Below, piece after piece: positions 7,680 through 47,074 of a stretch of 64,000 bases of DNA (positions are counted from its first letter, which is position 1; each line of letters opens with the position of its first letter). A model generated the notes under the pieces. It had not been told where the DNA came from, did no database searches, and saw nothing but the letters and a program-made list of their open reading frames with translations. The translations under genes were made by a program, and so were the position numbers. The stretch is taken from NCBI GenBank assembly GCA_949317995.1, contig OX439043.1:2286501-2350500 (forward strand), written 5' to 3'. The DNA is from Acholoe squamosa. Its lineage: Eukaryota > Annelida > Polychaeta > Phyllodocida > Polynoidae.

Positions 7680-7726
7680 TGCTATGAGAGGTTAGTAGTG
7701 GGATATTCTGAGGAGTTCTCCACAAT

Positions 7727-8269
7727 TGTCAACGAACTGTTACAAGTCGATGTTGTAATGAACACTGAATCCAGAGAAGTTCTTTGATCCTTGTTTATTG
7801 CATGATGACAGAGTGTACATATAGGTGGTGACAATGATACACTTGCCAGCGTGCAGGCTCTGCCCCTAAGCTCCTAGCTCAACCTGTCGTGGGTCCTAGA
7901 TACTAGGGAGGTTGTGCGTGGGATAATGTAAGTAGAAAAGATGATCCTGGGGGCTGCTCACCAGTCTTATATACTAAGGTGAGCAGCTCACACGGTGATG
8001 AAATGTACCGGTAGGAACAGGTCAGATCTGGTCAGATCTGGTTGGGTCTGATCAGATCCGACGCGTCGCCATACCTGGTAATGATTCTATTTATAGATGG
8101 ACCAATCAGGATGAAGGGAGATCGTGGAATTTCCCTGCATCCTAGAAATGCGTCCACAGGTATGTCGGTATGTCGTGATGCTCCCAGTGAGTCAGTGCCC
8201 AGAAATGGGATGGGCCGGGCTCTCACAACATCCTGGTATGGGTGATGTAAGAGCAGTTCACTGTACACA
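7727..8269 (-). repeat. Gypsy-1 5' LTR with adjacent primer-binding site
   Basis: The LTR is bounded by TGT...ACA ends (start TGTGTACAGTG on the minus strand, end CGTTGACA) and is about 543 bp. The end sequence CGTTGACAAT is shared with the LTR at 19218. Just inside, on the minus strand, TGTGGAGAACTCC is the likely tRNA primer-binding site with its leading TGG damaged. A tandem GGTCAGATCT duplication lies near 8022-8040. The right boundary is uncertain by a few bases. Confidence 0.65.
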
Positions 8270-10035: not shown

Positions 10036-10284
10036 TGTAGAGGTCGGCAAAAACGTCTCTTGGAGAAACCGGGACTCGAACCCCGGACCCTCCAACTTCG
10101 AAGCGGCAGCTCTTCCTCTGAGCTACTTCCCCTGGCCTGACATACCCTGTCACCAACACGGCCCCACTGACATTTCCATCTTCCACCTACCTCTGGATCG
10201 GTATGGTATACATAGGGGGATTGACCACCAAGTGAGCTGGCCTCTGGAGGCTCAACGCACCCGGCAAGGGAACGAACCCCTACA
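10036..10284 (-). repeat. LTR-like terminal repeat, 3' copy (minus-strand orientation)
   Basis: 249 bp, starts TGTAGAGGTC and ends CCCCTACA on the plus strand, so it is TG...CA on either strand with short inverted ends. It differs from the partner at 11774-12022 at nine positions only. Contains a 72-nt tRNA-like sequence at 10061-10132 on the minus strand. Confidence 0.78.
10061..10132 (-). other. tRNA-like sequence inside the 3' LTR-like repeat
   Basis: On the minus strand the 72 nt begin GGGGAAGTAGCTCAGAGG and end CCCGGTTTCTCCA. TAGCTCAGAGG fits the Pol III A box and GGTTCGAGTCC fits the B box exactly. The 5' GGGGAAG can pair with the 3' TTTCTCC allowing G-U, the D stem GCTC/GAGC is intact, and the T stem CCGGG/CCCGG is intact with one extra loop base. 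The anticodon stem is poor. By eye it is closest to tRNA-Ala. Probably not a working tRNA gene but a transcribable Pol III unit. Confidence 0.7.
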
Positions 10285-15090: not shown

Positions 15091-15232
15091 CTAGAGTGTA
15101 TTGTAAAAAATTACTCCTTTGCCACACAAAACCACAGAATGTGTTATAAGATATCCACAGAGCACATATTCTTCACACAAACTATCACAATGTCCATATA
15201 GATTAATTGTACCTAGTGAACAAAATGTAATT

Positions 15233-15640
15233 TGTGGACACTTTGTTAATACATCTGGTGGACAAAATGTATTTTGTGGACACTTTGTTACCATGCACTG
15301 TGGACAAAGTAGGTGTTGTGGATACTTTGTGATAAATTTGGGTTGATAGATTGTGGGCAGTTTGTAATTTGTGGACATCTTGCTCGAGTTGAATGTTGAC
15401 AGTGTGGTTTTTGTGGATGCTCTGTGGTAAAAGCTTGTGGACTAATAGTGTTTTTGGACATATTGTGACAAAGGTATGTGGACAAAATATGTTTCGTGGA
15501 TACTTTGTGATATAGATTGTGGACAGAGTGTATTTTGTGGATACCATGATTTTATTTTATGGACACCTTGTAAAAATAGTCTGTGGACAGTACATTTATT
15601 ATGGACACCTTGCACTGGGTCTTTGTGAACAAAATGTGAA
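15233..15640. repeat. Degenerate minisatellite built on GTGGACA
   Basis: About 15 submonomers start with GTGGACA or GTGGATA. They alternate between ~18 bp (GTGGACAAAATGTATTTT) and ~23 bp (GTGGACACTTTGTTACC...), giving a 41-45 bp higher-order period. The minus strand reads as repeated KVSTKYILST or TKCPQNTFCP peptides in two frames, which explains the Cys-rich and Ser-rich open frames here; these are not genes. Confidence 0.75.
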
Positions 15641-19546: not shown

Positions 19547-20509
19547 CCTAAACACCCGGACAGTGCTCAATCTGCTTGTGCTCCAATCCGAACTTGGACA
19601 GATGAGCTAACCATCGTCCAATCATCAACTCGGCGTCCCTTAAATTAAGGAGCCATCTCAGAGATGAATGGTCGGTACGTAAAGTGAAGTCAGTTCCCCG
19701 AAGAAAATGCTTATACTTCTTTGTATACACCACTAGCTCTCTTTAAGTGGTACAATAATTATGCTGTGTCTTGTTTAAAGTGTTGCTAGCGAATGCCAAT
19801 AGGACCTCGACTCCATTCTGGACCTGAGAGAGTGCAGCCCCTATAGCATTATTACTAGCATCAGTGTCTAGTATGAATTGTCCGGCGGGCGCTGACTCTT
19901 ACCTAACGGGAGAGTCAGGCTTCCTGCATAGGGCTAATTTGTCAGGTGGCTGGAATTGTAGGACATAACTTTTTTATGTCAATTTCCTCTTAAGGATGGC
20001 TTCCTAAGACATGTTTGTTGCCATTTTGTGAGAAACCTTTCATATGGGGGCCCAGATTATTTGGTTCTTGCAAATCTGTTAGCCTTCACATCAAGTTTAG
20101 CTGCCATGGTCGGCCATGATGGAAGTGGTTTCAGGTCTCACAACAGAGGTGTTATTCATGAAATAATGTTATCCATGAGAATCTGCTTGGTGAGTGGAGA
20201 TTGACTTCCTGTCTGGCAGAAAATGCACCTGCTTATGGCTACCTGTTGCAGCCCACACAGTATGTGCCAAACCTTGGAAAAAGGTGCGATCTAAAGGTTT
20301 CCAACAAAAGACACTCTTCCCACTCATAGACAGCAAAACTAAGGTGGTACTCTTGTCAATATTATATGCTGATTGTTGGGGATTTGTTTCTGTCAAATGT
20401 TATTCTTAGAAACTTGCTGTTTCTAGAGCACCTGCAAGTTTTAGCTAGGGCAGTCCCAGCGACTCAGTCCTTAACTGAGTCGCACACAGTGACTAAGTAT
20501 GAAATGTCC
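19547..20509 (-). pseudogene. Gypsy-3 RNase H, interrupted
   Basis: The domain starts at about 20509 (KYPKPKGHFIL) and resumes at 19883 with QFILDTDASNNAIGAALSQ, bearing the first catalytic aspartate. It then gives YKHFLRGTDFTLRTDHSSL (19733 down), with a later catalytic aspartate, and IEHCPG before the Gypsy-2 LTR. The gap is a ~600 bp insertion at 19884-20486. Confidence 0.8.
19884..20486. mobile_element. ~600 bp insertion in Gypsy-3 RNase H
   Basis: It is flanked by an imperfect ~20 bp direct repeat of the target (CAGTGTCTAGTATGAATTG at 19862 and CAGTGACTAAGTATGAAATG at 20487). Both ends carry a small GACTC...GAGTC hairpin followed by GC, one near 20461-20482, the other near 19892-19917. 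No coding frame of note; family unknown. Confidence 0.6.
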
Positions 20510-21645
20510 CTTGGGTTTGGGATATTTCAGTACCGGTGTGTTCCTAAACAAATCTTTTATTCTATTAAAAGATTCTTTTTGCTCACTGGTCCATGGGAAG
20601 GGTTCCCGAGCCCTACCAGGTGTCCAATGAGCTAAGCATTGCATAGATAAGCTTACACGAGAGTAATTTGGTATAAAATCACGGTAATAGGAACAGATTC
20701 CTAAAAATGATCTAACCTCCTTAGCACTCGTGAGTCTTTCCCAATTCTCCATGGCTTCTAGCTTCTCCAGATCTGCACTTACCCTGTTGGAGGTAATTAT
20801 CCTTCCTAAATATGTAATTGTTTTATTAAACAAATTACATTTCTTAGACTTGAGTTTAAGGCTGTTAGCTAGAATCCTATCCAAGACTAGTTGTAGGTTC
20901 GCATGGGATTCCTTGAATGACTTGCCAAACACGACAACATCATCCAAGTAAACCAAACACCTCTTCCACAACAAGTCACTGAGTAGAGATTTCATCATAG
21001 CCTTGAACGTAGCTGGTGCATTGCACAATCCGAATGGTAAGACATTATACTCAAATAGTCCCAAATGGCTAGAGAACACAGTTTTCTCTATGTCATTGGG
21101 ATGCATTGGTTTCTGCCAATACCCGGACTGTAAATCCAGGGTGCAGAACCATTGGTTCCCACCCAAACTATCTAAGGTCTGGTCTATCCTTGGTAAAGGA
21201 TATGAGTTCTTCTTTGTCATACCGTTTTGTTTACGATAGTCAACACAGAAACGGATGGTACCATCTTTCTTTGTGGTCATACAAACAGGGCTGGACCAAG
21301 GGCTCTTGCTCGGCACAAGCCCTTGTGCCAAATTAACTTCTTCTTAAGAGGGAGTCTACGATACGGTATTTTGAAAGGTCTCTTGTCGCCCACATCGATA
21401 GTGTGCAACACCTTATCGGTTCTGCCTACGGGTCCTCCCTCTGTACCGAAAGCATTTTCATACCTTTGTAGGAGATCCCCTAGGTGCCGTTTTTCCTCTG
21501 TATTCTGTAAATCTGATTTACTAATCAGTTTCTGAAATTCTTCATTCAAAGGGTGCTTACTAACATGGTTTAATGGTTTCTTGAACTCGGCTTCGGCAAT
21601 GTGTTCCACTGAACTTATCACCTCTACGCGGTTCAAGTAAATCAC
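20510..21645 (-). pseudogene. Gypsy-3 reverse transcriptase
   Basis: The fingers (IPYRRLPLKKK) lie in the frame 21645-21277. After a frame change near 21300-21331 the palm and thumb follow: TIRFCVDYRKQN, CTLDLQSGYWQ (catalytic D), NVLPFGLCNAPATF, LVYLDDVVVF (Y-L-D-D box), KKCNLFNKTITYLG and RSFLGICSYYRDFIPNYS. This is a textbook Ty3/Gypsy RT with connection domain. Confidence 0.92.
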
Positions 21646-28104: not shown

Positions 28105-29063
28105 GGGAATCCATTCATGCCATTTAGAATAATACCTGTGTATATGGCAGCCATTTTGTATTATCAATGAGTTCTAATGAGTGCAGGGTTGCGAGGTTTC
28201 TTCCAGAGGACGGATAAAAACAGTAAAAACCATGGAAAAAACCTTCGGAAGAAATAGGTTTTGTCCACCTAAAAGTGGGAGAAATGGAAGAAACTGGAAA
28301 AATGTCTCTAAACATTTAGAATAAAACTCAAAATGTCACTATATACCAATTAAAGTATAATAAAGATAATTACAGAGGTATCTTTTCCATGTCTGTAGGT
28401 GGGGGAGTTATTGGTTTTTCAAAATAATGATGCAGGAAACCAAATTATGAGTGGATATTGTCTGTTTTGTGACCTGGACAAAATTACATTTCCAGTTCTT
28501 TCCAAAGTGAGACTTATTTCAACTGTGCCCTTTTTTATTCAAGGCACATAGCTTTGGTGAAGATAGAGTGACTTAAACTGACGTTACACCTGTCATAAGG
28601 GACGACTGAATTCAATGGCTATTTGGTGGTAAGGTATTTATAAACTTGTGAACGTTGTACACAATATCTGATGGACGAAACTAAATTCTGGGGAAGATGT
28701 CTGTGTTGTGAAGTGTTTGAAGTTTGCTTGTTTGTTTTTATGAATACAAGACACATAATCTCTTAATTATGTCTTTTTCTTCCCTTTTCTGTGTAAAGGC
28801 TAGATAATCATCACATAAATGTTGAGATACTGAAAGTGAACGATGAACAGCCAGGTCAGTATAAAGGTGCAGTAAACATAGTCACGTCATGTACTTAACT
28901 ACAACTTAGTACAGAATGTAACAGATAATAACTCGCTCTGATTAACACTGAGTCAACGAATATTTCTGTAGATGAAGCTATATATAGTTACCCTTCTGTT
29001 ATCTACAGTACATCGAGTCTCATTCTATACATTCATGCCATTTAGAACCATACCTGTGTATAT

Positions 29064-30753
29064 GACCAATAGCCATGAATTGTCGTCAAGTAGGCTGGTC
29101 AAGTGGTCCCAAAAAATATAGCTGAATTATCTATTTCTTTTACATACGTAAAGTACAAGTGTTGGTACTTGAGCCCCATATATGAGGGAAGGTTAAATGT
29201 GTAAACTATTTCTACACCAACCTGCTGAAGTGAGGTATGTCAAGTACCATGTGTTCATGTCTATGACCTATCCCTATGCAGAGATTCATAGGATATACAT
29301 GTATCACAGTTATTATACCCTTATAATTGTTAATAATATCATAGAAAAACACCCCAACCATGGAGGAAAATCACTTTTCTTGTACATTTTTGGCATGTTC
29401 ATGCTATTTTTGGCATGGGGAGAATAATGCTAGTTAGAAATAGCCCTTGTTGAAACTAACATCTTTCTTTTCAGTTAGCATCACTCCTTGAAAAGGGAAC
29501 AAAGGCAACAGGGCAATATATTCTATCATTAACAGGTAGCATTTGCCTTCAGCTCAACCCTGGTATATAGATTTAAGGGTCTGGGGATGAGATCTGGATA
29601 GTAAAACTAATGAAACCAGGTTGTAGACGTGACCACACAATCACTGCTGATAGGAGAAATATAGAGAAAATGTTTATAAATGATTGATTCCTATGCTATT
29701 TATTTAACATGGAGAGTTATTAACCATTCGGAATACATGAGCACATCTCTATTCTCTCCTGTGATGGTGGAATTAACCTTTTTTGACAATAAAAGTTGCA
29801 GGTCTTTGGTTAATGTCTTGCATATTCATCTTAAAACCCTGTTGTTATGACTGTCTTAGTGATAGGTTGATGGAATACAATGTTTATGGCTTGGTTTCAT
29901 TGGTACATTACCTCTAGGCCTAAGTACCACTGACTACAACATAAGGGAGGGGCCATACAGGTTTAAGTAAGAGGGAAATATGCGGTCGTAGACATGACCA
30001 CATGGTCGTAGACGTGACCACACCTATACTTTTCTTATGATATCTCTGGTAGTATGTGGAACATAATACCCAAACTTACAGGGCTTAATTCTTTCATATA
30101 AAGGTATAAGGCACACATAATAAGGATAGTTAAATATGAAACACCTAGCAGCATTGCCGCATGTATGGTTGTAGACGTGACCACATGTAAACTACCCCAA
30201 AATCAGACCATAGCCCCAGGGCCATACTATTCTACAGGTAGGTTCAATTTTTTTTGTGTGATAGATAGTTACATGTAAGGTCTTTCCATGCTAAATCTCA
30301 TTGGTCCATGTACTTTGTCTTTTCTACTATAAGGGGACCTGAAAGAGGTTGTAGACGTGACCACTCAGCAATTCCTCAAAGGGTTTAATTTTCCTAGTGT
30401 TCACAAAACATAATGCATGGACCTCCAACTATCATGAAAAAATTCACTATGGTAAGGGGGGATATACCAGATGAAATGAATAAGGATTTGGCCCTTTATT
30501 TTTTTTATTTTGTAACAAGGGGAAAAAGTTAGGTCCTCCTTTTTACCCCAAAAAACACCCTTTTTGGCTGTTCTCACCCCTGTAGCTCTCTTATTATGCT
30601 TCACAGATAGACAAAACCCTGGTTCCCCTTCAAGCCCTAAGCCTTGATGACCAAAATACATGATTAACACAACTAAATCTCTCATTTTTTTGAATAATTT
30701 ATTAAAAGAGAGGCAGAGGCAACCTAGTTGACGACAATTCATGGCTATTGGTC
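29064..30753. mobile_element. TIR element E, copy in unit U1
   Basis: Ends are inverted over 31 bp with one mismatch: GACCAATAGCCATGAATTG at the left, the same read on the minus strand at the right. The target is ATAT (or ATATG) duplicated. The partial unit U0 holds the empty site (GTGTATATGGCAGCC at 28138-28152). There is no transposase. Five copies of a motif GGTYGTAGACGTGACCAC lie at 29619, 29984, 30004, 30167 and 30347. Open frames at 29197-29427 and 30401-30742 are not supported as genes. Confidence 0.85.
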
Positions 30754-31420
30754 ATATGGCAGCCATTTTGAATTATTAATGAGTTCTAATGAGTGCAGGG
30801 TTGGGAGGTTTCTTCCAGAGGACGGACAAAAACAGTAAAATCCATGGAAAAAAACCTCCGGAAGAAATAGGTTTTGTCCACCTAAAAGTGGAAGAAATGA
30901 AAGAAACTGGAAAAATGTCTCTAAACATTTAGAATATAACTCAAAATGGCACTATATACCAATTAAAGCATAATAAAGATAATTACAGAGGTATCTTTTC
31001 CATATCTGTAGGTGGGGGAGTTATTGGTTTTTCAAAATAATGATGCAAAAGGAGCAAAATAATGAGGAAAAAGGAGCGAAACAATGGCACAGGGCTAAGA
31101 CGCGGAAGTTTGGCGCGGCCTGGGTTTTTGTTGGTTTTGTAGTAACCATACATTGCTCAACTTATATTTTTGCACCAGTCTATTATGAAACCTAATACAC
31201 CATCATGAGGGACTTCTGAAACACATGGAACCTACCTCTTCGCCAATAGAAGGATCTAAAATTCCTCCAACGACACGGTAGATGTGAAAATCCAACATGG
31301 CAGCACCCATACTCGTACGCTTCAACGGTTTGTAAACAAAGCAAGATTGAACCTTCTATGGCCCAAATGGAATACAATCCTATGCCTGAATGGTTCTAAG
31401 ACATTTGAGAACGTGGTATA

Positions 31421-32977
31421 TTGATTATAAAGACTTTTAATACCTGTTTTGTACCAACCAATATACGAGAACAAATGCCAACGACTAGAAATACGAAACA
31501 GTCGCCCCATTCGGAGCTAGCTTCCGGCAAACCAAAAACAATGGCTGCCACTTCCGCTATGAACAATAATAGAACTTTACAAACAGAAATATCCGATTCT
31601 GAAGAAGAAAATGAAGCCTTTCTACCTCCCCTGACCCATAAATCGTCGACAAAAGACATTATTGATAAAATCAATGAAATTGATACTCGACTACAGGTTC
31701 AGGAATCTATTGCCAAGAGAACGCTTAGGCTGCTAGGTGGTATGGAAACAAGACTCTTCGGACCAAATGGATTCCCAAATGGAAAATCTGTCACTATACC
31801 AGAAATCGAATCACGGTTGGATGAACATAGTTCCTCCTTATCTATGCACAGTGACAAAATTGAATCTAATACCTCAGCAACAACGAAAACCCAATCTGAG
31901 CTTGATAAACATGAGAATCAATTTGAAAGATTCGATCTTGAAAGGAAAAGAAGAATCCTTATTTTGGAAGGTATTGACGAAGATAGGCCAGGTAGTCTAC
32001 GTGACATCCTTGACCAAATTATCAATGACCTGGGACTTGATTTCAACAATGCAGTAGCTGAGGCTATATATCGTCGAGGTAAGAAGTATGTACCCACTGC
32101 ACAACAGAAGCAAAACACAAACTTCAAAAAAAGGAATCGTCCTATAGTAGTTATTTTTGCCTCAGCTCACTACAAAATTCAGATGTTCTCTAATGTAAAA
32201 AGATTGCAAGGAAATGCTGCATGGCGTGGTCTCCACCTAGCTGACGACATAACCAAGGAAGAAAAACAAATCCAAAATGACCTGAGATCAATCCATGCAT
32301 TGGCACGTGGTAAGGGGGTGGACTGCTCTATTAGAGGAACACAAATCATCATAGAAGGTCAAGCTTACCCATACAAGGAGCTGGGGAATTTACCTCATGA
32401 TCTATCCCTTCAAAATGCTAAAACTGTTCAAACCCCAGATGGTATTGCCTTCCAAAGTGAACACTCAGTATTTTCTAACCTCCACAAGTCTGAAATAAAA
32501 TTCGAAGGCCACACATATGATTCTGTTGAAAGAGCATACCAGGCTAAAATGTGTGTAGTATCCAACCAAGTTCATATCCTAAGGAAGGTTAATTCTGCAG
32601 CCACACCACTTGATAGCATGTTTGCTGGACGAGCATGTAAGAAAACCAACGACTGGTACGACATAGATGAGACTGTGATGCAGAAACTGCTGGAAATCAA
32701 GTTCAATGACCCGCTACTACTACACCAACTAACCCAGACCAAGGGCAAGTACCTGTATGAAGCTACACGACATCGTACATATGGGGCTGGATTCCATCTT
32801 GGTCAGAAAAAGGACATCAATATTAGAAATGTTGCCCATAATCAATATGAGTGTGCCAACAAGTTGGGAGAATTTTTGATGAAAATAAGATATAGACACA
32901 CAGGTGAACAACCTCTCCCAACTGCTGAGGAAATACGTCTTCAAGATGCAGCAAACCAACAGCAAGATAATCCCTAA
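31421..32977 (+). CDS. LINE ORF1 protein: coiled coil, RRM-like domain and C-terminal NADAR domain
   Basis: 518 codons from the first ATG; a start at residue 19 (MPTTRN) is also possible. Residues 1-70 are polar with an acidic patch SDSEEENEAF. Residues ~76-175 form a coiled coil. ~176-325 resemble the RNA-binding part of L1-type ORF1 proteins (KRRILILEGIDED, IVVIFASAHYK, AWRGLHLADD). Residues ~338-491 match the NADAR/YbiA family: FQSEHSVFSNL, SVERAYQAKM (E370 at the place of the E in the family's VE-x-YYQA-x-K), FAGRACK, KLLEIKF, LYEATRHRTYGAGF and NKLGEFLMKIR. The usual tryptophan of the W-G-x-G motif is tyrosine here. NADAR proteins are known as N-glycosidases acting on ADP-ribose-type substrates, some removing ADP-ribose from guanine in DNA; activity of this protein is inference. 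The frame is intact. Confidence 0.88.
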   Translation: MIIKTFNTCFVPTNIREQMPTTRNTKQSPHSELASGKPKTMAATSAMNNNRTLQTEISDSEEENEAFLPPLTHKSSTKDIIDKINEIDTRLQVQESIAKRTLRLLGGMETRLFGPNGFPNGKSVTIPEIESRLDEHSSSLSMHSDKIESNTSATTKTQSELDKHENQFERFDLERKRRILILEGIDEDRPGSLRDILDQIINDLGLDFNNAVAEAIYRRGKKYVPTAQQKQNTNFKKRNRPIVVIFASAHYKIQMFSNVKRLQGNAAWRGLHLADDITKEEKQIQNDLRSIHALARGKGVDCSIRGTQIIIEGQAYPYKELGNLPHDLSLQNAKTVQTPDGIAFQSEHSVFSNLHKSEIKFEGHTYDSVERAYQAKMCVVSNQVHILRKVNSAATPLDSMFAGRACKKTNDWYDIDETVMQKLLEIKFNDPLLLHQLTQTKGKYLYEATRHRTYGAGFHLGQKKDINIRNVAHNQYECANKLGEFLMKIRYRHTGEQPLPTAEEIRLQDAANQQQDNP

Positions 32978-33214
32978 CAATCTGTAAAGTACTATACCTT
33001 CACCTACGAAATCCTGGGCTAAGGTCAAACAACTGTAGCAAAAGCCTACTAAGTTCAATAACCTTACCGGTATACGGGACTGCATAAAGGCAGAAGTTCC
33101 TATATTGGTTACTATTCATACCAGAAGTGTAATCTAGGTCAATTCTATGTATTACTACTACTGTATTAATAGAGAGAAAATGAAAAGACTAAACAAACCA
33201 ATTCACTGTATTAC

Positions 33215-36087
33215 ATGTATTATACAAATATAAAGAAACTAGAAGACTCCAAAGGTCTACGTATTCTGCACTTAAATACAAGAAGTATCAAAGCCAATTA
33301 TGCATCTATATGTGCCGAAATCTACCCAGCCAACCTTGAAATTTTTACGTTTTCTGAAACATGGTTTAAATGCGAAGATGATGAATCTAGTTATCAACTG
33401 AATGGATATACTAGATATAGATTAGACAGGCAAGTCCTTGACAATAAAGGAAAAATTAAAACAGGGGGGGGGGTATATGTACCTATGTAAAGCATGGAAT
33501 CAAACATGATATACAGAAATACGAGCATTTAAACAAATCTGATGGTACAATTGAAATCCAATGTGTATGTATCCTGAAAGATCACATGAAACCAATTATT
33601 CTATTAAATATATATAGACCACCTGACGGGGATAAAAATTTATTTGTTAACATCCTATCGGACATACTCTCGAATTTAGAAAATACAAATACTTTCGAAA
33701 TTATAGCCTTGGGGGATTTTAACTTCAATATAAACGAGGATACAGATATAGTCAATAATTTACTAAATCGAATGAAACACTTTGGACTGAACCAAGAAAT
33801 TAAAGATGCTACGAGGAAAAAGGCAACACTAGATCTAATATTTACGAATCTTAGACCAAATCTCATTGTATCAGGTATATGCAACAATTATATCTCTGAC
33901 CATCTCCCTATATTTCTAATAAGGAAAAAAACTAAAAATGTACAAGAAAAGGTATATATAACAGGTCGTTCTTATTCTAAATTATCTGATGAAACCCTTT
34001 TGTCTGAATTTGACAAAATAAATTGGGACAACTTTAACAATTCAACAGATGTTAATTATGCCTGGTCACAGTTAGAATCAGCCATACGTGGCATTCTTGA
34101 TAGATTTTGTCCGGTACATAAATTTCTGGTACATAGATATAGAGATCCATGGATGTCCCAGAATGTCTATGAAACCATAAGGGAAAAAAACAGAAAACTA
34201 TGGAAAGCCAGACGATCTAATAAAGAAGAAGACTGGGAAAACTCAAGGGTTTTTAAGAATAATGCAAATAAGGTAATAGACAAAGCTAGAAAAAATTTCT
34301 TTAAAGAACAACTTGAAAATCATAAAAATGATCATAGAAAATTCTGGAGAGTCATTACTAACCTGATACCCGGACACCCCCATCGTGCGAAAGATATATC
34401 ATTAGTAGACCATGGCAATAACAATATGCCTATTGACAAAGATAAAGTACCTGCCTTTATTAATCAATACTTTGCAAATATTGGACCTACACTTGCCAAA
34501 GATCTATATTTGCCATGGAAACCCTACGATGAGTATGTTGCAAATAAAATGGACCCGATTGTTACTAATTTGCCTGAGGTTAAGAAACTAGTCCATGATA
34601 TCAATGTTAACAAATCCTCAGCAATTTCAGATATATCTACTAACATATTAAAGAAAATTTTCACTCATGCTCCTGACAAACTTGTTAAAATATTCAATCT
34701 ATCCTTTTCTTCAAATACGGTACCAGATGATTGGAAACTTTCGAAGGTAACCCCAATACCTAAGGCTAGTAATGATAAATTGGTGAATAACTACCGCCCT
34801 ATATCATTGTTACCCCTACCGTGTAAATTAATTGAAAAAATTGTACACAATAGAGTATATGGTTTCTTGGTGAAAGAAAAAATACTAACACCTCATCAGG
34901 GTGGTTTCAGATCAGGTTTTAGTACTATAGACACCTTGGCAAAATTTACTGATGATATTAAAAGAAATTTAAATATGGGTAACTCAACGATAGCTGCTTT
35001 TATAGACCTAAGGAAAGCTTTTGATACGGTTGATCATTCTGTATTGCTAATAAAATTAAATCACTACGGTATAAGATCTGACAATTACCATTGGTTTGAA
35101 AATTATCTTACAAACAGACACCAAATAACAATAGCAAATGGTATAACGTCTGGTAAAAACCAGGTACTGTGTGGCGTACCCCAGGGGTCCATCTTAGGTC
35201 CTCTATTATTCCTGATTTATGTGAAGGATGTAATAAATTGTGTAAAAAATTGTAATATTAAGCTATATGCCGACGATACTGTTATATATTCAGCACATCA
35301 CTCGTATATGCTAGCTAAAACTGATCTTCAACACGACCTTGAAATGTATGAAACATGGTGTATTCAAAATAAACTATCTATTAATGTGGCTAAAACAATG
35401 GTAATGATTTTCTCCTCAAGTACCAAAAAACTCAATACGCTAGCAGCTGATATACACTTAGGTAATCAACTATTGCAAGTAGTACCAAGCTATAAATACC
35501 TTGGAGTTACCCTTGACCCTCTACTGTATTATAATTTACATCTAGCTAACCAAGTAAAAACTTTTGCTTACAAAACCTACAAACTATGTCAACTAAGAAG
35601 ATACCTTGATGTTAAACTAGCTATAAGAATATACAAGAGTACTATCCTCCCATATATGGAATATGCTGATATTTGCTTTGCCACCACATTTGATAAATAT
35701 TTGGATCCACTCCAATATGCACAGAATCGCTGTATAAAAATATGTCTTGGTTTGCCCCATTTGACAAACACTAACTATATACACAATGTAACGAAAATTA
35801 ACAAAATTTTTGATAGAAGACATATCCATTTATTGAATTACATGTATAATAGAGCACAAGATGATTATTATAAAGACAATAGAAGAATTGTTACTAGATT
35901 ACATGATGCACCCACTTTGAAGATCATAACCCCAAATGGTATGGCTTATGCTAGGAGCGTAGAATACTATGGAGCCATAAACTGGAATGCTCTACCTACG
36001 GAGAGGAGACTTGCTGTAAACTTAAATCAATTCAAAAAAGAATCTAAAAAATTACTAAAGTCTCTTATTCCGTACGTAAATGCATAA
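33215..36087 (+). pseudogene. LINE ORF2: endonuclease and reverse transcriptase (frameshift at a G run)
   Basis: The frame from ATG 33215 gives the endonuclease start (LHLNTRSIKAN, FTFSETWFKC) and stops at 33490 just after a run of ten G (33467-33476). The second frame is open to 36087 and continues with NIYRPPDG, ALGDFNFN and SDHLPIF (endonuclease), then RT: NYRPISLLPLPCK, HQGGFRSGFS, FIDLRKAFDTVDHS (catalytic D), GVPQGSILGPLLFLIYV, KLYADDTVIY (Y-A-D-D) and YKYLGVTLDPLL. There is no RNase H; by RT motifs it belongs to the CR1/L2-like group. Apart from the G run the gene looks complete, so the break may be recent, or an assembly error in the homopolymer. Confidence 0.9.
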
Positions 36088-37148
36088 TATTTCCTAAATC
36101 TATAGCACAATATTAATCTTACGGTTGATCTCTCTCCCATATCCTAAGAAATTATCAATATGTGATTTATAATTGAATTGTCCCGATGATTCCTTCAATG
36201 TATATTTCATTATTACTTTATTATTTTATGTGCCAAAGTTTTCGTACATATATTGGGAAGATAGGTAGGACCAGAATTATCAACCTAACACTGTTATAGT
36301 GGGGATGAGGTCCTCTACCTTCTGTTTGACTTATGTTATCGTTCGTAATACATGGTAATTAAGTATATCTATTCAAGAAAACTCTGTATTTTCATGTTAA
36401 ATTAAGATGTTTCAAACATATTTGACATATCGTCTTGTACACCTCGATCTCTGTACTGCTATTAATCTATGCTCGATACTTATTAAGTCAATAAAGTAAA
36501 TTCAAACCAAAAAAAAATGCAGGAAACCAAATTATGAGTGGATATTTTCTGTTTTGTGACCTGGACAAAATTATATTTCCAGTTCTTTCCAAAGTGAGAC
36601 TAATTTCAACTGTGCCCTTTTTTATTCAAGGCACATAGCTTTGGTTAAGATAGAGTGACTTAAACTGACGTTACACCTGTCATAAGGGACGACTGAATTC
36701 AATAGCTATTTGGTGGTAAGGTATTTATAAGCTTGTGAAGGTTGTACACAATATCTGATGGACGAAACTAAATTCTGGGGAAGATGTCTGTGTTGTGAAG
36801 TGTTTGAAGTTTGCTTGTTTGTTTTTATGAGTACAAGACACATAATCTCTTAATAATGTCTTTTTCTTCCCTTTTCTGAGTAAAGGCTAGATAATCATTA
36901 CATAAATGTTGAGATACTGAAAGTGAACGATGAACGGCCAGGTCATTATGAAGGAGCAGTAAACATAGTCACATCATGTACTTAACTACAACTTAGTACA
37001 GAATGTAACAGATAATAACTCGCTCTGATTAACACAGAGTCAACAAATATTTCTGTAGATGAAGCTATATAGTTACCCTTCTGTTATCCACAGTACATCG
37101 AGTCTCATTCTATACATTCATGCCATTTAGAACCATACCTGTGTATAT

Positions 37149-38858
37149 GACCAATAGCCATGAATTGTCGTCAAGTAGGCTGGTCAAGTGGTCCCAAAAA
37201 AATATAGCTGAATTATCTATTTCTTTTACATACGTAAAGTACAAGTGTTGGTATTTGAGCCCCATATATGAGGGAAGGTTAAATGTGTAAACTATTTCTA
37301 CACCAACCTGCTGAAGTGAGGTATGTCAAGTACCATGTGGTCATGTCTACGACCTATCCCTATGCAGAGATTCATAGGATATACATGTATCACAGTTATT
37401 ATACCCTTATAATTGTTAATAATATCATAGAAAAACACCCCAACCATGGAGGAAAATCACTTTTCTTGTACATTTTTGGCATGTTCATGCTATTTTTGGC
37501 ATGGGGAGAATAATGCTAGTTAGAAATAGCCCTTGTTGAAACTACGTCTTTCTTTTCAGTTAGCATCACTCCTTGAAAAGGGGACAAAGGCAACAGGGCA
37601 ATATATTCTATCATTAACAGGTAGCATTTGCCTTCAGCTCAACCCTGGTATATAGATTTAGGGGTCTGGGGATGAGATCTGGATAGTAAAACTAATGAAA
37701 CCAGGTTGTAGACGTGACCACACAATCACTGCTGATAGGAGAAATATAGAGAAAATGTTTATAAATGATTGATTCCTATGCTATTTATTTAACATGGAGA
37801 GTTATTAACCATTCGGAATACATGAGCACATCTCTATTCTCTCCTGTGATGGTGGAATTAACCTTTTTTGACAATAAAAGTTGCAGGTCTTTGGTTAATG
37901 TCTTGCATATTCATCTTAAAACCCTGTTGTTATGACTGTCTTAGTGATAGGTTGATGGAATACAATGTTTATGGCTTGGTTTCATTGGTACATTACCTCT
38001 AGGCCTAAGTACCACTGACTACAACATAAGGGAGGGGCCATACAGGTTTAAGTAAGAGGGAAATATGCAGTCGTAGACGTGACCACGCGGTCGTAGACAT
38101 GACCACATGGTCGTAGACGTGACCACACCTATACTTTTCTTATGATATCTCTGGTAGTATGTGGAACATAATACCCAAACTTACAGGGCTTAATTCTTTC
38201 ATATAAAGGTATAAGGCACACATAATAAGGATAGTTAAATATGAAACACCTAGCAGCATTGCCGCATGTATGGTTGTAGACGTGACCACATGTAAACTAC
38301 CCCAAAATCAGACCATAGCCCCAGGGCCATACTATTCTACAGGTAGGTTCAATTTTTTTTGTGTGATAGATAGTTACATGTAAGGTCTTTCCATGCTAAA
38401 TCTCATTGGTCAATGTACTTTGTCTTTTCTACTATAAGGGGACCTGAAAGAGGTTGTAGACGTGACCACTCAGCAATTCCTCAAAAGGTTTAATTTTCCT
38501 AGTGTTCACAAAACATAATGCATGGACCTCCAACTATCATGAAAAGATTCACTACGGTAGGGGGGGGGGGGATATACCAGATGAAATGAATAAGGATTTG
38601 GCCCTTTATTTTTTATTTTGTAACAAGGGGAAAAAGTTAGGTCCTCCTTTTTACCCCAAAAAACACCATATTTGGCTGTTCTCACCCCTGTAGCTCTCTT
38701 ATTATGCTTCACAGATAGACAAAACCCTGGTTCCCCTTCAAGCCCTAAGCCTTGATGACCAAAATACATGATTAACACAACTAAATCTCTCATTTTGAAT
38801 AATTTATTAAAAGAGAGGCAGAGGCAACCTAGTTGACGACGATTCATGGCTATTGGTC
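37149..38858. mobile_element. TIR element E, copy in unit U2
   Basis: Same ends as the copy at 29064. It has one extra GTCGTAGACGTGACCAC motif, giving three in tandem with ~18 bp period near 38070-38125. Confidence 0.85.
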
Positions 38859-39117
38859 ATATGGCAGCCATTTTGAATTATTAATGGGTTCTACTGAGTG
38901 CAGGGTTGGGAGGTTTCTTCCAGAGGACGGACAAAAACAGTAAAATCCATGGAAAAAAACCTCCCGAAGAAATAGGTTTTGTCCACCTAAAAGTGGAAGA
39001 AATGGAAGAAACTGGAAAAATGTCTCTAAACATTTAGAATAAAACTCAAAATGTCACTTCGGACCAAACGGATTCCCAAATGGAAAATCTGTCACTATAC
39101 CAGAAATCGAATCACGG

Positions 39118-40278
39118 TTGGATGAACATAGTTCCTCCTTATCTATGCACAGTGACAAAATTGAATCTAATACCTCAGCAACAACGAAAACCCAATCTGA
39201 GCTTGATAAACATGAGAATCAATTTGAAAGATTCGATCTTGAAAGGAAAAGAAGAATCCTTATTTTGGAAGGTATTGACGAAGATAGGCCAGGTAGTCTA
39301 CGTGACATCCTTGACCAAATTATCAATGACCTGGGACTTGATTTCAACAATGCAGTAGCTGAGGCTATATATCGTCGAGGTAAGAAGTATGTACCCACTG
39401 CACAACAGAAGCAAAACACAAACTTCAAAAAAAGGAATCGTCCTATAGTAGTTATTTTTGCCTCAGCTCACTACAAAATTCAGATGTTCTCTAATGTAAA
39501 AAGATTGCAAGGAAATGCTGCATGGCGTGGTCTCCACCTAGCTGACGACATAACCAAGGAAGAAAAACAAATCCAAAATGACCTGAGATCAATCCATGCA
39601 TTGGCACGTGGTAAGGGGGTGGACTGCTCTATTAGAGGAACACAAATCATCATAGAAGGTCAAGCTTACCCATACAAGGAGCTGGGGAATTTACCTCATG
39701 ATCTATCCCTTCAAAATGCTAAAACTGTTCAAACCCCAGATGGTATTGCCTTCCAAAGTGAACACTCAGTATTTTCTAACCTCCACAAGTCTGAAATAAA
39801 ATTCGAAGGCCACACATATGATTCTGTTGAAAGAGCATACCAGGCTAAAATGTGTGTAGTATCCAACCAAGTTCATATCCTAAGGAAGGTTAATTCTGCA
39901 GCCACACCACTTGATAGCATGTTTGCTGGACGAGCATGTAAGAAAACCAACGACTGGTACGACATAGATGAGACTGTGATGCAGAAACTGCTGGAAATCA
40001 AGTTCAATGACCCGCTACTACTACACCAACTAACCCAGACCAAGGGCAAGTACCTGTATGAAGCTACACGACATCGTACATATGGGGCTGGATTCCATCT
40101 TGGTCAGAAAAAGGACATCAATATTAGAAATGTTGCCCATAATCAATATGAGTGTGCCAACAAGTTGGGAGAATTTTTGATGAAAATAAGATATAGACAC
40201 ACAGGTGAACAACCTCTCCCAACTGCTGAGGAAATACGTCTTCAAGATGCAGCAAACCAACAGCAAGATAATCCCTAA
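39118..40278 (+). pseudogene. LINE ORF1 copy 2, N-terminally truncated, NADAR domain complete
   Basis: 386 codons from an internal ATG equivalent to residue 133 of copy 1. The end of the coiled coil, the RRM-like part and the whole NADAR domain are present and by eye identical in sequence to copy 1. The upstream ATG at 39051 is in another frame. With no 5' UTR promoter it is unlikely to be expressed as before. Confidence 0.85.
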
Positions 40279-40515
40279 CAATCTGTAAAGTACTATACCT
40301 TCACCTACGAAATCCTGGGCTAAGGTCAAACAACTGTAGCAAAAGCCTACTAAGTTCAATAACCTTACCGGTATACGGGACTGCATAAAGGCAGAAGTTC
40401 CTATATTGGTTACTATTCATACCAGAAGTGTAATCTGGGTCAATTCTATGTATTACTACTACTGTATTAATAGAGAGAAAATGAAAAGACTAAACAAACC
40501 AATTCACTGTATTAC

Positions 40516-43387
40516 ATGTATTATACAAATATAAAGAAACTAGAAGACTCCAAAGGTCTACGTATTCTGCACTTAAATACAAGAAGTATCAAAGCCAATT
40601 ATGCATCTATATGTGCCGAAATCTACCCAGCCAACCTTGAAATTTTTACGTTTTCTGAAACATGGTTTAAATGCGAAGATGATGAATCTAGTTATCAACT
40701 GAATGGATATACTAGATATAGATTAGACAGGCAAGTCCTTGACAATAAAGGAAAAATTAAAACAGGGGGGGGGTATATGTACCTATGTAAAGCATGGAAT
40801 CAAACATGATATACAGAAATACGAGCATTTAAACAAATCTGATGGTACAATTGAAATCCAATGTGTATGTATCCTGAAAGATCACATGAAACCAATTATT
40901 CTATTAAATATATATAGACCACCTGACGGGGATAAAAATTTATTTGTTAACATCCTATCGGACATACTCTCGAATTTAGAAAATACAAATACTTTCGAAA
41001 TTATAGCCTTGGGGGATTTTAACTTCAATATAAACGAGGATACAGATATAGTCAATAATTTACTAAATCGAATGAAACACTTTGGACTGAACCAAGAAAT
41101 TAAAGATGCTACGAGGAAAAAGGCAACACTAGATCTAATATTTACGAATCTTAGACCAAATCTCATTGTATCAGGTATATGCAACAATTATATCTCTGAC
41201 CATCTCCCTATATTTCTAATAAGGAAAAAAACTAAAAATGTACAAGAAAAGGTATATATAACAGGTCGTTCTTATTCTAAATTATCTGATGAAACCCTTT
41301 TGTCTGAATTTGACAAAATAAATTGGGACAACTTTAACAATTCAACAGATGTTAATTATGCCTGGTCACAGTTAGAATCAGCCATACGTGGCATTCTTGA
41401 TAGATTTTGTCCGGTACATAAATTTCTGGTACATAGATATAGAGATCCATGGATGTCCCAGAATGTCTATGAAACCATAAGGGAAAAAAACAGAAAACTA
41501 TGGAAAGCCAGACGATCTAATAAAGAAGAAGACTGGGAAAACTCAAGGGTTTTTAAGAATAATGCAAATAAGGTAATAGACAAAGCTAGAAAAAATTTCT
41601 TTAAAAAACAACTTGAAAATCATAAAAATGATCATAGAAAATTCTGGAGAGTCATTACTAACCTGATACCCGGACACCCCCATCGTGCGAAAGATATATC
41701 ATTAGTAGACCATGGCAATAACAATATGCCTATTGACAAAGATAAAGTACCTGCCTTTATTAATCAATACTTTGCAAATATTGGACCTACACTTGCCAAA
41801 GATCTATATTTGCCATGGAAACCCTACGATGAGTATGTTGCAAATAAAATGGACCCGATTGTTACTAATTTGCCTGAGGTTAAGAAACTAGTCCATGATA
41901 TCAATGTTAACAAATCCTCAGCAATTTCAGATATATCTACTAACATATTAAAGAAAATTTTCACTCATGCTCCTGACAAACTTGTTAAAATATTCAATCT
42001 ATCCTTTTCTTCAAATACGGTACCAGATGATTGGAAACTTTCGAAGGTAACCCCAATACCTAAGGCTGGTAATGATAAATTGGTGAATAACTACCGCCCT
42101 ATATCATTGTTACCCCTACCGTGTAAATTAATTGAAAAAATTGTACACAATAGAGTATATGGTTTCTTGGTGAAAGAAAAAATACTAACACCTCATCAGG
42201 GTGGTTTCAGATCAGGTTTTAGTACTATAGACACCTTGGCAAAATTTACTGATGATATTAAAAGAAATTTAAATATGGGTAACTCAACGATAGCTGCTTT
42301 TGTAGACCTAAGGAAAGCTTTTGATACGGTTGATCATTCTGTATTGCTAATAAAATTAAATCACTACGGTATAAGATCTGACAATTACCATTGGTTTGAA
42401 AATTATCTTACAAACAGACACCAAATAACAATAGCAAATGGTATAACGTCTGGTAAAAACCAGGTACTGTGTGGCGTACCCCAGGGGTCCATCTTAGGTC
42501 CTCTATTATTCCTGATTTATGTGAAGGATGTAATAAATTGTGTAAAAAATTGTAATATTAAGCTATATGCCGACGATACTGTTATATATTCAGCACATCA
42601 CTCGTATATGCTAGCTAAAACTGATCTTCAACACGACCTTGAAATGTATGAAACATGGTGTATTCAAAATAAACTATCTATTAATGTGGCTAAAACAATG
42701 GTAATGATTTTCTCCTCAAGTACCAAAAAACTCAATACGCTAGCAGCTGATATACACTTAGGTAATCAACTATTGCAAGTAGTACCAAGCTATAAATACC
42801 TTGGAGTTACCCTTGACCCTCTACTGTATTATAATTTACATCTAGCTAACCAAGTAAAAACTATTGCTTACAAAACCTACAAACTATGTCAACTAAGAAG
42901 ATATCTTGATGTTAAACTAGCTATAAGAATATATAAGAGTACTATCCTCCCATATATGGAATATGCTGATATTTGCTTTGCCACCACATTTGATAAATAT
43001 TTGGATCCACTCCAATATGCACAGAATCGCTGTATAAAAATATGTCTTGGTTTGCCCCATTTGACAAACACTAACTATATACACAATGTAACGAAAATTA
43101 ACAAAATTGGTGATAGAAGACATATCCATTTATTGAATTACATGTATAATAGAGCACAAGATGATAATTATAAAGACAATAGAAGAATTGTTACTAGATA
43201 ACATGATGCACCCACGTTGAAGATCATAACCCCAAATGGTATGGCTTATGCTAGGAGCGTAGAATACTATGGAGCCATAAACTGGAATGCTCTACCTACG
43301 GAGAGGAGACTTGCTGTAAACTTAAATCAATTCAAAAAAGAATCTAAAAAATTACTAAAGTCTCTTATTCCGTACGTAAATGCATAA
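40516..43387 (+). pseudogene. LINE ORF2 copy 2 (frameshift plus nonsense codon)
   Basis: Same domains as in copy 1. The G run (40765-40773) has nine G instead of ten, again out of frame. The second frame ends early at 43201, where the TTA of copy 1 is TAA, removing the last ~60 codons. Other differences are single substitutions (e.g. FVDLRK for FIDLRK). Confidence 0.9.
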
Positions 43388-44458
43388 TATTTCCTAAATC
43401 TATAACAGAATATTAATCTTACGGTTGATCTCTCTCCCATATCCTAAGAAATTATCAATATGTGATTTATAATTGAATTGTCCCGATGATTCCTTCAATG
43501 TATATTTCATTATTACTTTATTATTTTATGTGCCAAAGTTTTCGTACATATATTGGGAAGATAGGTAGGACCAGAATTATCAACCTAACACTGTTATAGT
43601 GGGGATGAGGTCCTCTACCTTCTGTTTGACTTATGTTATCGTTCGTAATACATGGTAATTAAGTATATCTATTCAAGAAAACTCTGTATTTTCATGTTAA
43701 ATTAAGATGTTTCAAACATATTTGACATATCGTCTTGTACACCTCGATCTCTGTACTGCTATTAATATATGCTCGATACTTATTAAGTCAATAAAGTAAA
43801 TTCAAACCCAAAAAAAATGCAGGAAACCAAATTATGAGTGGATATTTTCTGTTTTGTGACCTGGACAAAATTATATTTCCAGTTCTTTCCAAAGTGAGAC
43901 TAATTTCAACTGTGCCCTTTTTTATTCAAGGCACATAGCTTTGGTTAAGATAGAGTGACTTAAACTGACGTTACACCTGTCATAAGGGACGACTGAATTC
44001 AATAGCTATTTGGTGGTAAGGTATTTATAAGCTTGTGAAGGTTGTACACAATATCTGATGGACGAAACTAAATTCTGGGGAAGATGTCTGTGTTGTGAAG
44101 TGTTTGAAGTTTGCTTGTTTGTTTTTATGAGTACAAGACACATAATCTCTTAATAATGTCTTTTTCTTCCCTTTTCTGAGTAAAGGCTAGATAATCATTA
44201 CATAAATGTTGAGATACTGAAAGTGAATGATGAACGGCCAGGTCATTATGAATGAGCAGTAAACATAGTCACATCATGTACTTAACTACAACTTAGTACA
44301 GAATGTAACAGATAATAACTCGCTCTGATTAACACAGAGTCAACAAATATTTCTGTAGATGAAGCTATATAGTTACCCTTCTGTTATCCACAGTACATCG
44401 AGTCTCATTCTATACATTCATGCCATTTAGAACCATACCTGTGTATATGACCAATAGC

Positions 44459-46157
44459 CATGAATTGTCGTCAAGTAGGCTGGTCAAGTGGTCCCAAAAA
44501 AATATAGCTGAATTATCTATTTCTTTTACATACGTAAAGTACAAGTGTTGGTATTTGAGCCCCATATATGAGGGAAGGTTAAATGTGTAAACTATTTCTA
44601 CACCAACCTGCTGAAGTGAGGTATGTCAAGTACCATGTGGTCATGTCTACGACCTATCCCTATGCAGAGATTCATAGGATATACATGTATCACAGTTATT
44701 ATACCCTTATAATTGTTAATAATATCATAGAAAAACACCCCAACCATGGAGGAAAATCACTTTTCTTGTACATTTTTGGCATGTTCATGCTATTTTTGGC
44801 ATGGGGAGAATAATGCTAGTTAGAAATAGCCCTTGTTGAAACTAACATCTTTCTTTTCAGTTAGCATCACTCCTTGAAAAGGGGACAAAGGCAACAGGGC
44901 AATATATTCTATCATTAACAGGTAGCATTTGCCTTCAGCTCAACCCTGGTATATAGATTTAGGGGTCTGGGGATGAGATCTGGATAGTAAAACTAATGAA
45001 ACCAGGTTGTAGACGTGACCACACAATCACTGCTGATAGGAGAAATATAGAGAAAATGTTTATAAATGATTGATTCCTATGCTATTTATTTAACATGGAG
45101 AGTTATTAACCATTCAGAATACATGAGCACATCTCTATTCTCTCCTGTGATGGTGGAATTAACCTTTTTTGACAATAAAAGTTGCAGGTCTTTGGTTAAT
45201 GTCTTGCATATTCATCTTAAAACCCTGTTGTTATGACTGTCTTAGTGATAGGTTGATGGAATACAATGTTTATGGCTTGGTTTCATTGGTACATTACCTC
45301 TAGGCCTAAGTACCACTGACTACAACATAAGGGAGGGGCCATACAGGTTTAAGTAAGAGGGAAATATGCAGTCATAGACGTGACCACGCGGTCGTAGACA
45401 TGACCACATGGTCGTAGACGTGACCACACCTATACTTTTCTTATGATATCTCTGGTAGTATGTGGAACATAATACCCAAACTTACAGGGCTTAATTCTTT
45501 CATATAAAGGTATAAGGCACACATAATAAGGATAGTTAAATATGAAACACCTAGCAGCATTGCCGCATGTATGGTTGTAGACGTGACCACATGTAAACTA
45601 CCCCAAAATCAGACCATAGCCCCAGGGCCATACTATTCTACAGGTAGGTTCAATTTTTTTTGTGTGATAGATAGTTACATGTAAGGTCTTTCCATGCTAA
45701 ATCTCATTGGTCAATGTACTTTGTCTTTTCTACTATAAGGGGACCTGAAAGAGGTTGTAGACGTGACCACTCAGCAATTCCTCAAAAGGTTTAATTTTCC
45801 TAGTGTTCACAAAACATAATGCATGGACCTCCAACTATCATGAAAAAATTCACTACGGTAGGGGGGGGGGATATACCAGATGAAATGAATAAGGATTTGG
45901 CCCTTTATTTTTTATTTTGTAACAAGGGGAAAAAGTTAGGTCCTCCTTTTTACCCCAAAAAACACCATATTTGGCTGTTCTCACCCCTGTAGCTCTCTTA
46001 TTATGCTTCACAGATAGACAAAACCCTGGTTCCCCTTCAAGCCCTAAGCCTTGATGACCAAAATACATGATTAACACAACTAAATCTCTCATTTTGAATA
46101 ATTTATTAAAAGAGAGGCAGAGGCAACCTAGTTGACGACGATTCATGGCTATTGGTC
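44459..46157. mobile_element. TIR element E, copy in unit U3
   Basis: Near-identical to the U2 copy, including the triple motif near 45372-45426, so U2 and U3 are the most recent duplicates. Confidence 0.85.
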
Positions 46158-47074
46158 ATATGGCAGCCATTTTGAATTATTAATGGGTTCTACTGAGTGC
46201 AGGGTTGGGAGGTTTCTTCCAGAGGACGGACAAAAACAGTAAAATCCATGGAAAAAAACCTCCCGAAGAAATAGGTTTTGTCCACCTAAAAGTGGAAGAA
46301 ATGGAAGAAACTGGAAAAATGTCTCTAAACATTTAGAATAAAACTCAAAATGTCACTATATACCAATTAAAGCATAATAAAGATAATTACAGAGGTATCT
46401 TTTCCATATCTGTAGGTGGGGGATTTATTGGTTTTTCAAAATAATGATGCAGGAAACCAAATTATGAGTGGATATTTTCTGTTTTGTGACCTGGACAAAA
46501 TGACATTTCCAGTTCTTTCCAAAGTGAGACTAAATTCAACTGTGCCCTTTTTTATTCAAGGCACATAGCTTTGGTGAAGATAGAGTGACTTAAACTGACG
46601 TTACACCTGTCATAAGGGACAACTGAATTCAATAGCTATTTGGTGGTAAGGTATTTATAAGCTTGTGAAGGTTGTACACAATATCTGATGGACGAAACTA
46701 AATTCTGGGGAAGATGTCTGTGTTGTGAAGTGTTTGAAGTTTGCTTGTTTGTTTTTATGAGTACAAGACACATAATCTCTTAATTATGTCTTTTTCTTCC
46801 CTTTTCTGAGTAAAGGCTAGATATCATTACATAAATGTTGAGATACTGAAAGTGAATGATGAACAGCCAGGTCAATATAGAGGTGCAGTAAACATAGTCA
46901 CATCATGTAGTTAACTACAACTCAGTACAGAATGTAACAGATAATAACTCGCTCTGATTAACACAGAGTCAACGAATATTTCTGTAGGTGAAGCTGTATA
47001 GTTACCCCTTCTGTTATCCACAGTACATCGAGTCTCATTCTATACAGGTTAATTACCCTGGGTTAATTACCAGA

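Follow-up and report, generated by a model that had tools for sequence, protein, structure and literature searches.

A NADAR domain under purifying selection in the ORF1 protein of LINE retrotransposons of Acholoe squamosa

The first open reading frame (ORF1) of a LINE retrotransposon in the polychaete Acholoe squamosa carries a C-terminal NADAR domain, which is under strong purifying selection, of a strength close to that on the core of ORF1 itself. The element lies in a stretch of 64,000 nucleotides (contig OX439043.1, positions 2,286,501 to 2,350,500) that we refer to as the window, and its features are collected in Table 1.

Table 1. Features of the LINE, its tandem duplicate and two host-type NADAR genes (window positions unless stated)
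Feature	Position	Strand	Description and evidence
LINE retrotransposon, whole unit	about 31048-36516	+	5' UTR, ORF1, ORF2, 3' UTR, A-rich tail; flanks compared with uninterrupted repeat copies, four colinear relatives
5' target-site duplication	31043-31047	.	ATGCA; flank comparison
3' target-site duplication	36517-36521	.	ATGCA; after A run 36509-36517
ORF1	31421-32977	+	518 codons, TTG start, single open frame
ORF1 middle part, probable RNA-binding (RRM/CTD-like)	31913-32410	+	residues about 165-330; conservation among LINE ORF1s, motif resemblance
NADAR domain	32456-32893	+	residues 346-491; Pfam, structure model, Foldseek
Active-site motif 1, ERAYQAKM	32528-32551	+	E370 (=E43), K376, M377 (=K50); alignment
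Active-site motif 3, EATRHRTY	32759-32782	+	E447 (=E125), H451 (=D130), Y454 (=W133); alignment
ORF2, endonuclease (part) and reverse transcriptase	33586-36087	+	Pfam
Tandem duplicate of 31756-39058	39057-46357	+	5'-truncated ORF1 (39118-40278) and ORF2 (40739-43201); 99.63% identity; NADAR 7e-15
L034, host-type NADAR gene (candidate)	6536-7201 of locus	-	183 bits; without RT nearby
L035, host-type NADAR gene (candidate)	6389-7129 of locus	-	168 bits; without RT nearby

The NADAR domain and the element that carries it

ORF1 is open throughout, in agreement with the initial annotation, which had described a single intact frame; its first in-frame ATG corresponds to residue 19 (31475) and would give a protein of 500 amino acids. 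The C-terminal part had been assigned to NADAR from the letters alone, and profile searches, structure prediction and structure comparison confirm it. The Pfam profile PF08719 (NADAR) matched with E=1.3e-14 and 55.2 bits, above the curated cut-off of 35.1, while TIGR02464, a model of riboflavin-intermediate N-glycosidases, matched at 6.9e-14 (52.4 bits, under its own cut-off of 73.7). By sequence, the E. coli YbiA structure 2b3w was matched among PDB entries at E 3.4e-4. The AlphaFold2 model of residues 332-500 had a mean pLDDT of 86.7 and a pTM of 0.84. Its input alignment of 35 rows (34 of them bacterial, archaeal and viral-contig NADARs) contained NADARs only, which biases the model toward NADAR. 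It shows the five core helices and flanking small sheets of the YbiA fold, and when compared by Foldseek with 350,542 PDB chains only two were matched at E<=0.001, both NADARs: the Phytophthora NADAR with ADP-ribose (8bau, E 2.1e-9, TM 0.78) and E. coli YbiA (2b3w, E 1.3e-7). Protein searches with the NADAR stretch gave no matches at E<=0.001, and scans of viral contigs with the NADAR domain, ORF2 and ORF1 found no relatives.

The only Pfam matches of the window ORF1 were NADAR and a sub-threshold DUF7474, leaving the middle part without a match, and we take this part to be probably RNA-binding (RRM/CTD-like) from a resemblance of its motifs. When seven ORF1s were scanned at E<=5, Transposase_22 (PF02994) was absent among the 25 of 49 families listed. 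Likewise, L1 ORF1p was absent among the 60 PDB matches of a profile of the seven, in which coiled-coil chains appeared at E 0.02 and worse. Of the architecture first proposed for ORF1, the NADAR domain stood, the coiled coil is weakly suggested by these chains, and the L1-type RNA-binding part was not confirmed beyond the resemblance of motifs.

The insertion itself is genuine. Near 28420 and 46440, further copies of the 2.6-kb repeat hit by the element show the target without an interruption, and the flanks place both ORFs inside one target-site duplication, as had been claimed; the 15-base duplication derived from initial BLAST boundaries was replaced by ATGCA after the flank comparison. ORF2 has a strong match to RVT_1 (7.4e-39) and one to Exo_endo_phos_2 (7.2e-6) just under the cut-off, in keeping with the endonuclease/RT ORF2 annotated downstream of ORF1. 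The 5' part of the endonuclease is encoded further upstream and in a different frame, close to a G run at about 33464. This run has a different length in the two duplicate copies, and the ORF2 of copy 1 is split near it; the open frame of ORF2 in copy 2 terminates before that of copy 1. With an AP-type endonuclease (just below the cut-off), a reverse transcriptase, a target-site duplication and an A-rich 3' tail, the element has the features of a LINE. Its ORF2 scored 53.6 bits to R2 vs 44.3 bits to 8c8j, the latter treated as an L1 RT on the grounds that searches with other ORF2s place it next to LINE-1 ORF2 chains; L1 is not its closest RT. The motifs PQGSxLGPLLF and YADDT are of the Jockey-superfamily (CR1/L2-like) RT kind and, taken with exclusion, point to a LINE that is probably of non-L1 type, within the Jockey superfamily and CR1/L2-like.

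The initial annotation had also counted two copies that keep the domain unbroken while ORF2 is damaged. The domain is indeed unbroken in both, but a second independent insertion is ruled out, since the 7.3-kb units 31756-39058 and 39057-46357 form a tandem duplication and show only 27 differences, none of them in the NADAR stretch. The junction between the two units lies within ORF1, which explains the missing 5' part of that frame in copy 2. The persistence of an identical domain in a tandem duplicate says nothing about selection, and that part of the argument had to be given up. The order of events appears from the sequence to be insertion of the LINE into the 2.6-kb repeat, followed by the 7.3-kb duplication of LINE and repeat together. 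Copies of the repeat that served as landing site lie at 28142-31047, 36508-39058, 43809-46451 and 46158-47046 (window 28142-47046).

Elsewhere in the window, open reading frames at 2107-3138, 3459-4580 and 20471-21331 (all on the minus strand) resemble by eye pieces of protease, gag and RT of Gypsy-type LTR elements, and what looks by eye like a remnant of another LINE ORF2, with endonuclease and RT pieces, is found at 8223-10186 (minus strand). At 15231-15617 a 62-base repeat occurs in five irregular copies, most of them starting TTTGTGGACA.

Family copies, selection and the active site

We searched the window's own genome (1.481 Gb in 63 contigs) with ORF1. We scored 83 of the 3414 first-look candidates, among them the two in the window itself; six others were 98% identical and many 90–93%, the remainder trailed off to 69%, and a sister subfamily lay at 61–63%. 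Among these 83 matches 59 were stop-free and 78 reached residue 490 or beyond (the window's two included in both counts), so the further copies of ORF1-NADAR that the initial annotation had proposed to look for do exist. Four relatives fetched with their flanks were colinear with the window element over 5.2–5.45 kb at 87–98%; ORF1-NADAR was open in all four, and in three of them an ORF2 of 970–972 codons was open as well. The distance from ORF1 to ORF2 in this family is about 0.2 kb. The many copies and the relatives with open frames indicate a family with intact-looking members and not a decayed singleton.

The dN/dS of the NADAR domain between the window ORF1 and its copies was 0.10 at 98% identity (n=3), 0.08 at 90–93% (n=8) and 0.07 at 84–89% (n=4), far below the value of 1 that had been put forward as a check. 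For the middle part of ORF1 the same three sets gave 0.05, 0.07 and 0.06, for the N-terminal 80 residues 0.71, 0.28 and 0.22, and for the coil the two more distant sets gave 0.11 and 0.14. These are simple Nei-Gojobori counts in which every pair shares the window sequence, and the 20 ORF1s chosen for the family comparison were mostly stop-free (19/20). A chance fusion in a single copy is excluded by the 83 scored matches and by these ratios. Between other LINE families synonymous sites were saturated (five pairs, pS 0.79–0.93, pN 0.22–0.37); five close pairs gave dN/dS of 0.15–0.64, on few changes, and a sixth pair had none.

The residues of the active site can be read against the Phytophthora NADAR, whose numbering we follow. 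In that protein E43 and E125 coordinate the distal ribose, while K50, R79, W89, R93, W133 and D130 contact the pyrophosphate; in the E. coli C7 NADAR K95 (=K50) is essential, although Arg is tolerated in vitro, and NADARs take ADP-ribose off guanine, in DNA (PMC11543638). The window domain keeps the pair of ribose glutamates (E370 and E447) and W89 (W412), and departs on the side of the phosphate contacts, with M377, H451 and Y454 in place of K50, D130 and W133. The same altered site was found in the window family at 84–100% identity: all 16 copies have E43, M50, W89, E125, H130 and Y133 and a Lys just before position 50, and 15 of the 16 have R79. A site that is identical in all copies has been rebuilt and fixed, not left to rot, and a decayed domain is ruled out. 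In the five copies of the sister subfamily H130 and Y133 are constant, position 50 is Lys in four and Met in one (which has stops), and four carry Lys at both position 50 and the preceding one.

A wider comparison included 39 domains, namely the window's, 18 from 10-kb loci and 20 domain-only places in which RT was unchecked (L016, with a split domain, was dropped, and L024b is a second domain of L024 whose RT falls outside the stretch). They form 22 clusters at 70% identity; an ORF2 was observed with 18 domains and with 11 clusters. E43, W89 and E125 were invariant in all 39. Lys or Arg was present at position 50 in 38 (the window alone lacks it), D130 in 33 and W133 in 21. Only eight of 161 columns were invariant, and they include three of the six active-site positions (hypergeometric P=0.0015). 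R79, present in all seven host and reference domains, was kept in one of the 39, that of the window. At this position 26 of the 39 have Asp, a recurrent charge reversal beside an otherwise kept active site. The invariance of E43, E125 and W89 favours a ribosyl N-glycosidase site. Given K50M, D130H and W133Y, and the frequent Asp at position 79 in the other domains, activity on ADP-ribose is not to be assumed for the window copy.

NADAR domains beside other types of ORF2

With the Pfam NADAR model we obtained 3224 first-look candidates, a figure that is not a count of NADARs, and scored the best 150, which leave out the weaker domain of the window itself. All 150 were above the cut-off and 143 were stop-free. 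From the ranked lists 20 places were picked by hand, and not at random, and 10 kb around each were inspected. In 18 of these 20 the NADAR frame lies 5' of an RT-encoding ORF2 on the same strand, and the 18 ORF2s fall into three groups. Group A (L016-L019, L021, L025-L027, L032 and L033) is of the window element's kind, about 30% identical to its ORF2, and that of L026 scored 46.9 bits to R2 vs 32.4 to LINE-1. Group B (L020, L024 and L028) is L1/Tx1-like, since the ORF2 of L024 scored 233 bits to LINE-1 ORF2 chains vs 71 to R2. Group C (L022, L023 and L029-L031) is represented by L031, which is intermediate (LINE-1 96 bits, R2 70 bits).

Between groups A and B the similarity of the ORF1s covers both the middle part and NADAR, and with group C it is confined to NADAR. 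In group C, ORF1 has up to 774 codons and is located directly 5' of ORF2, which reaches 1167 codons. In L030 (complement of 5972-8293), and also in L022, L029 and L031, NADAR sits in the middle of ORF1 and is followed by a tail with a hint of esterase, a weak match to the carbohydrate esterase family SASA (PF03629, E=0.051); these proteins possibly combine two enzyme domains. In seven loci of group A (L017-L019, L021 and L025-L027) ORF1 and ORF2 are separated by about 1.2–3.5 kb, with other open frames between them in most, which may reflect an extra ORF or nested insertions. Compared with the short gap of the window family, the linkage of both ORFs is looser here.

The two best-scoring places among the 20, L034 and L035, had no RT within 10 kb and look like host NADAR genes. 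Both are canonical at E43, K50, R79, W89, E125, D130 and W133, and pattern scans with L034 found relatives in bacteria (up to 58% identity) and viral contigs (up to 57%). In a tree of NADAR domains, none of the LINE domains grouped with this pair. The window domain was placed beside phage and bacterial domains (support 72.4/89), A1-A3 came together at 99.2/100 and group B fell beside bacterial domains (80.7/77). The deep nodes are weak, and the module may have been gained once and then exchanged, or gained several times.

Prior art and proposed function

The presence of NADAR in LINE ORF1s is already in print: a Repbase search found it in the ORF1s of several Tx1 LINEs of the Pacific oyster, and also in Gypsy elements of Ectocarpus (PMC12477816, Genome Biology 2025). 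The oyster elements resemble the window element in having a YbiA-family NADAR in ORF1 and are probably of the same kind as our group B, whereas the window ORF2, which scores higher to R2 than to 8c8j (against 233 bits to LINE-1 for L024), is not L1-like. The Ectocarpus case is likewise a NADAR borne by a retroelement, although there it is an LTR element with the domain at the N-terminus of Pol. Among the titles found on NADAR and retroelements this was the only such report, most others being judged by title, so that a mention elsewhere is possible. What is new here is NADAR in a LINE of apparently non-L1 type, its presence beside three groups of ORF2 in one genome, the selection on it and the fixed altered site.

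Regarding characterised NADARs, the window domain shares its fold and E43, E125 and W89 with 8bau of Phytophthora nicotianae, and differs from it and from the DarT1-associated antitoxins in K50M, D130H and W133Y and in the fusion to ORF1 (PMC11543638). The same differences separate it from E. coli YbiA, with which it has 24–28% identity, a common fold and the YbiA-type E125. A parallel for an enzyme added to ORF1 is the esterase, a different enzyme, of vertebrate CR1/L2 LINEs, possibly passed between lineages. Table 1 of that paper, with 448 Jockey-superfamily elements, includes PHD, RRM, CCHC, Tnp22, coiled coil, zipper/finger and esterase, and NADAR is absent from it (PMC4120745).

We tentatively favour, as quite possible if short of probable, that the domain serves the LINE particle as an N-glycosidase-type module under selection, directed most likely against ADP-ribose-like marks as a counter-defence, with a substrate that in the window family has probably shifted. 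ORF1 would coat the RNA of the element and carry the domain to RNA, cDNA or particle, where it would bind and hydrolyse, or at least bind, an N-ribosyl group. The likeliest substrates would be ADP-ribose or a related nucleotide put by host ADP-ribosyltransferases on the nucleic acid of the element or on its particle, and a built-in counter to host ADP-ribosylation would be the most economical reading. ZAP is a PARP-family protein and reportedly restricts human retrotransposition. The NADARs of animal positive-strand RNA viruses have been interpreted as a means of countering ADP-ribosylation by the host (PMC9503650). A point against is that the nucleic acid of LINEs is not known to be ADP-ribosylated in Acholoe squamosa. 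The site of the window family was rebuilt and then fixed on its phosphate-contact side, and the three fixed changes suggest that it now probably differs from characterised NADARs in substrate or chemistry, perhaps acting on something other than ADP-ribose itself. N-glycosidase chemistry does not imply ADP-ribose, since YbiA acts on riboflavin intermediates; removal of ADP-ribose by the window family is plausible.

The main rival, which we regard as rather unlikely, is that the domain of the window family has lost catalysis and offers a surface for binding a ligand, RNA or a partner, in assembly or nuclear docking. The fixation of K50M, D130H and W133Y in 16/16 copies speaks for it, but E43, E125 and W89 are kept in those same copies and in all 39 domains, most of which also retain K or R50 (38/39) and D130 (33/39). 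In SNA-3, moreover, changes at YbiA-type residues in domains 2 and 3 impaired function, which according to its authors could mean either enzymatic activity or misfolding. The ORF1 protein of L1 belongs to the particle at the nick, and from such a position the domain might clear PARP-type ADP-ribose from DNA ends or guanines at the target, allowing target-primed reverse transcription and the second strand to finish. The activity of NADARs towards ADP-ribosylated guanines of DNA (PMC11543638) agrees with such help in integration, which nevertheless seems improbable given the three changes in the substrate site.

Another reading is that the domain processes the RNA of the element, acting for instance on NAD-type caps or on other nucleotides. 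A role in RNA processing has been suggested for the NADARs of Gypsy elements in Ectocarpus and of Tx1 elements in the oyster (PMC12477816); the version with NAD-type caps is our own proposal. NADARs, however, cut N-glycosidic bonds and not pyrophosphate, and we consider this reading very improbable. Finally, the two RT-free NADAR genes of the genome could have supplied a functionless domain by chance capture in one copy, an idea that is scarcely credible against the many copies, the several families, the dN/dS of 0.07–0.10 and a tree in which no LINE domain joins L034 and L035.

A broader version of the counter-defence reading is doubtful to us. NADAR would be a general, exchangeable module of LINE ORF1s beside at least three types of ORF2, in which the site moved from the ancestral R79 to an acidic phosphate side with Asp and was rebuilt a second time (K50M/D130H/W133Y) in the window family, and it would reveal an undescribed host defence in which the RNA or DNA of retrotransposons is tagged with ADP-ribose or a related nucleotide.

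The roles of NADAR across eukaryotes are stated to be unclear (PMC11125620), and these related families with natural variants of the active site provide a series for asking which NADAR residues set the substrate. The enzyme domains of LINE ORF1s extend past the esterase type. A selected NADAR across many copies hints at an arms race between genome and parasite. If the domain is an N-glycosidase in the LINE particle, hosts must place ADP-ribose-like marks on retrotransposons, and the reply of LINEs would be an enzyme, in parallel to the answer that has been proposed for RNA viruses with Macro and NADAR domains (PMC9503650).
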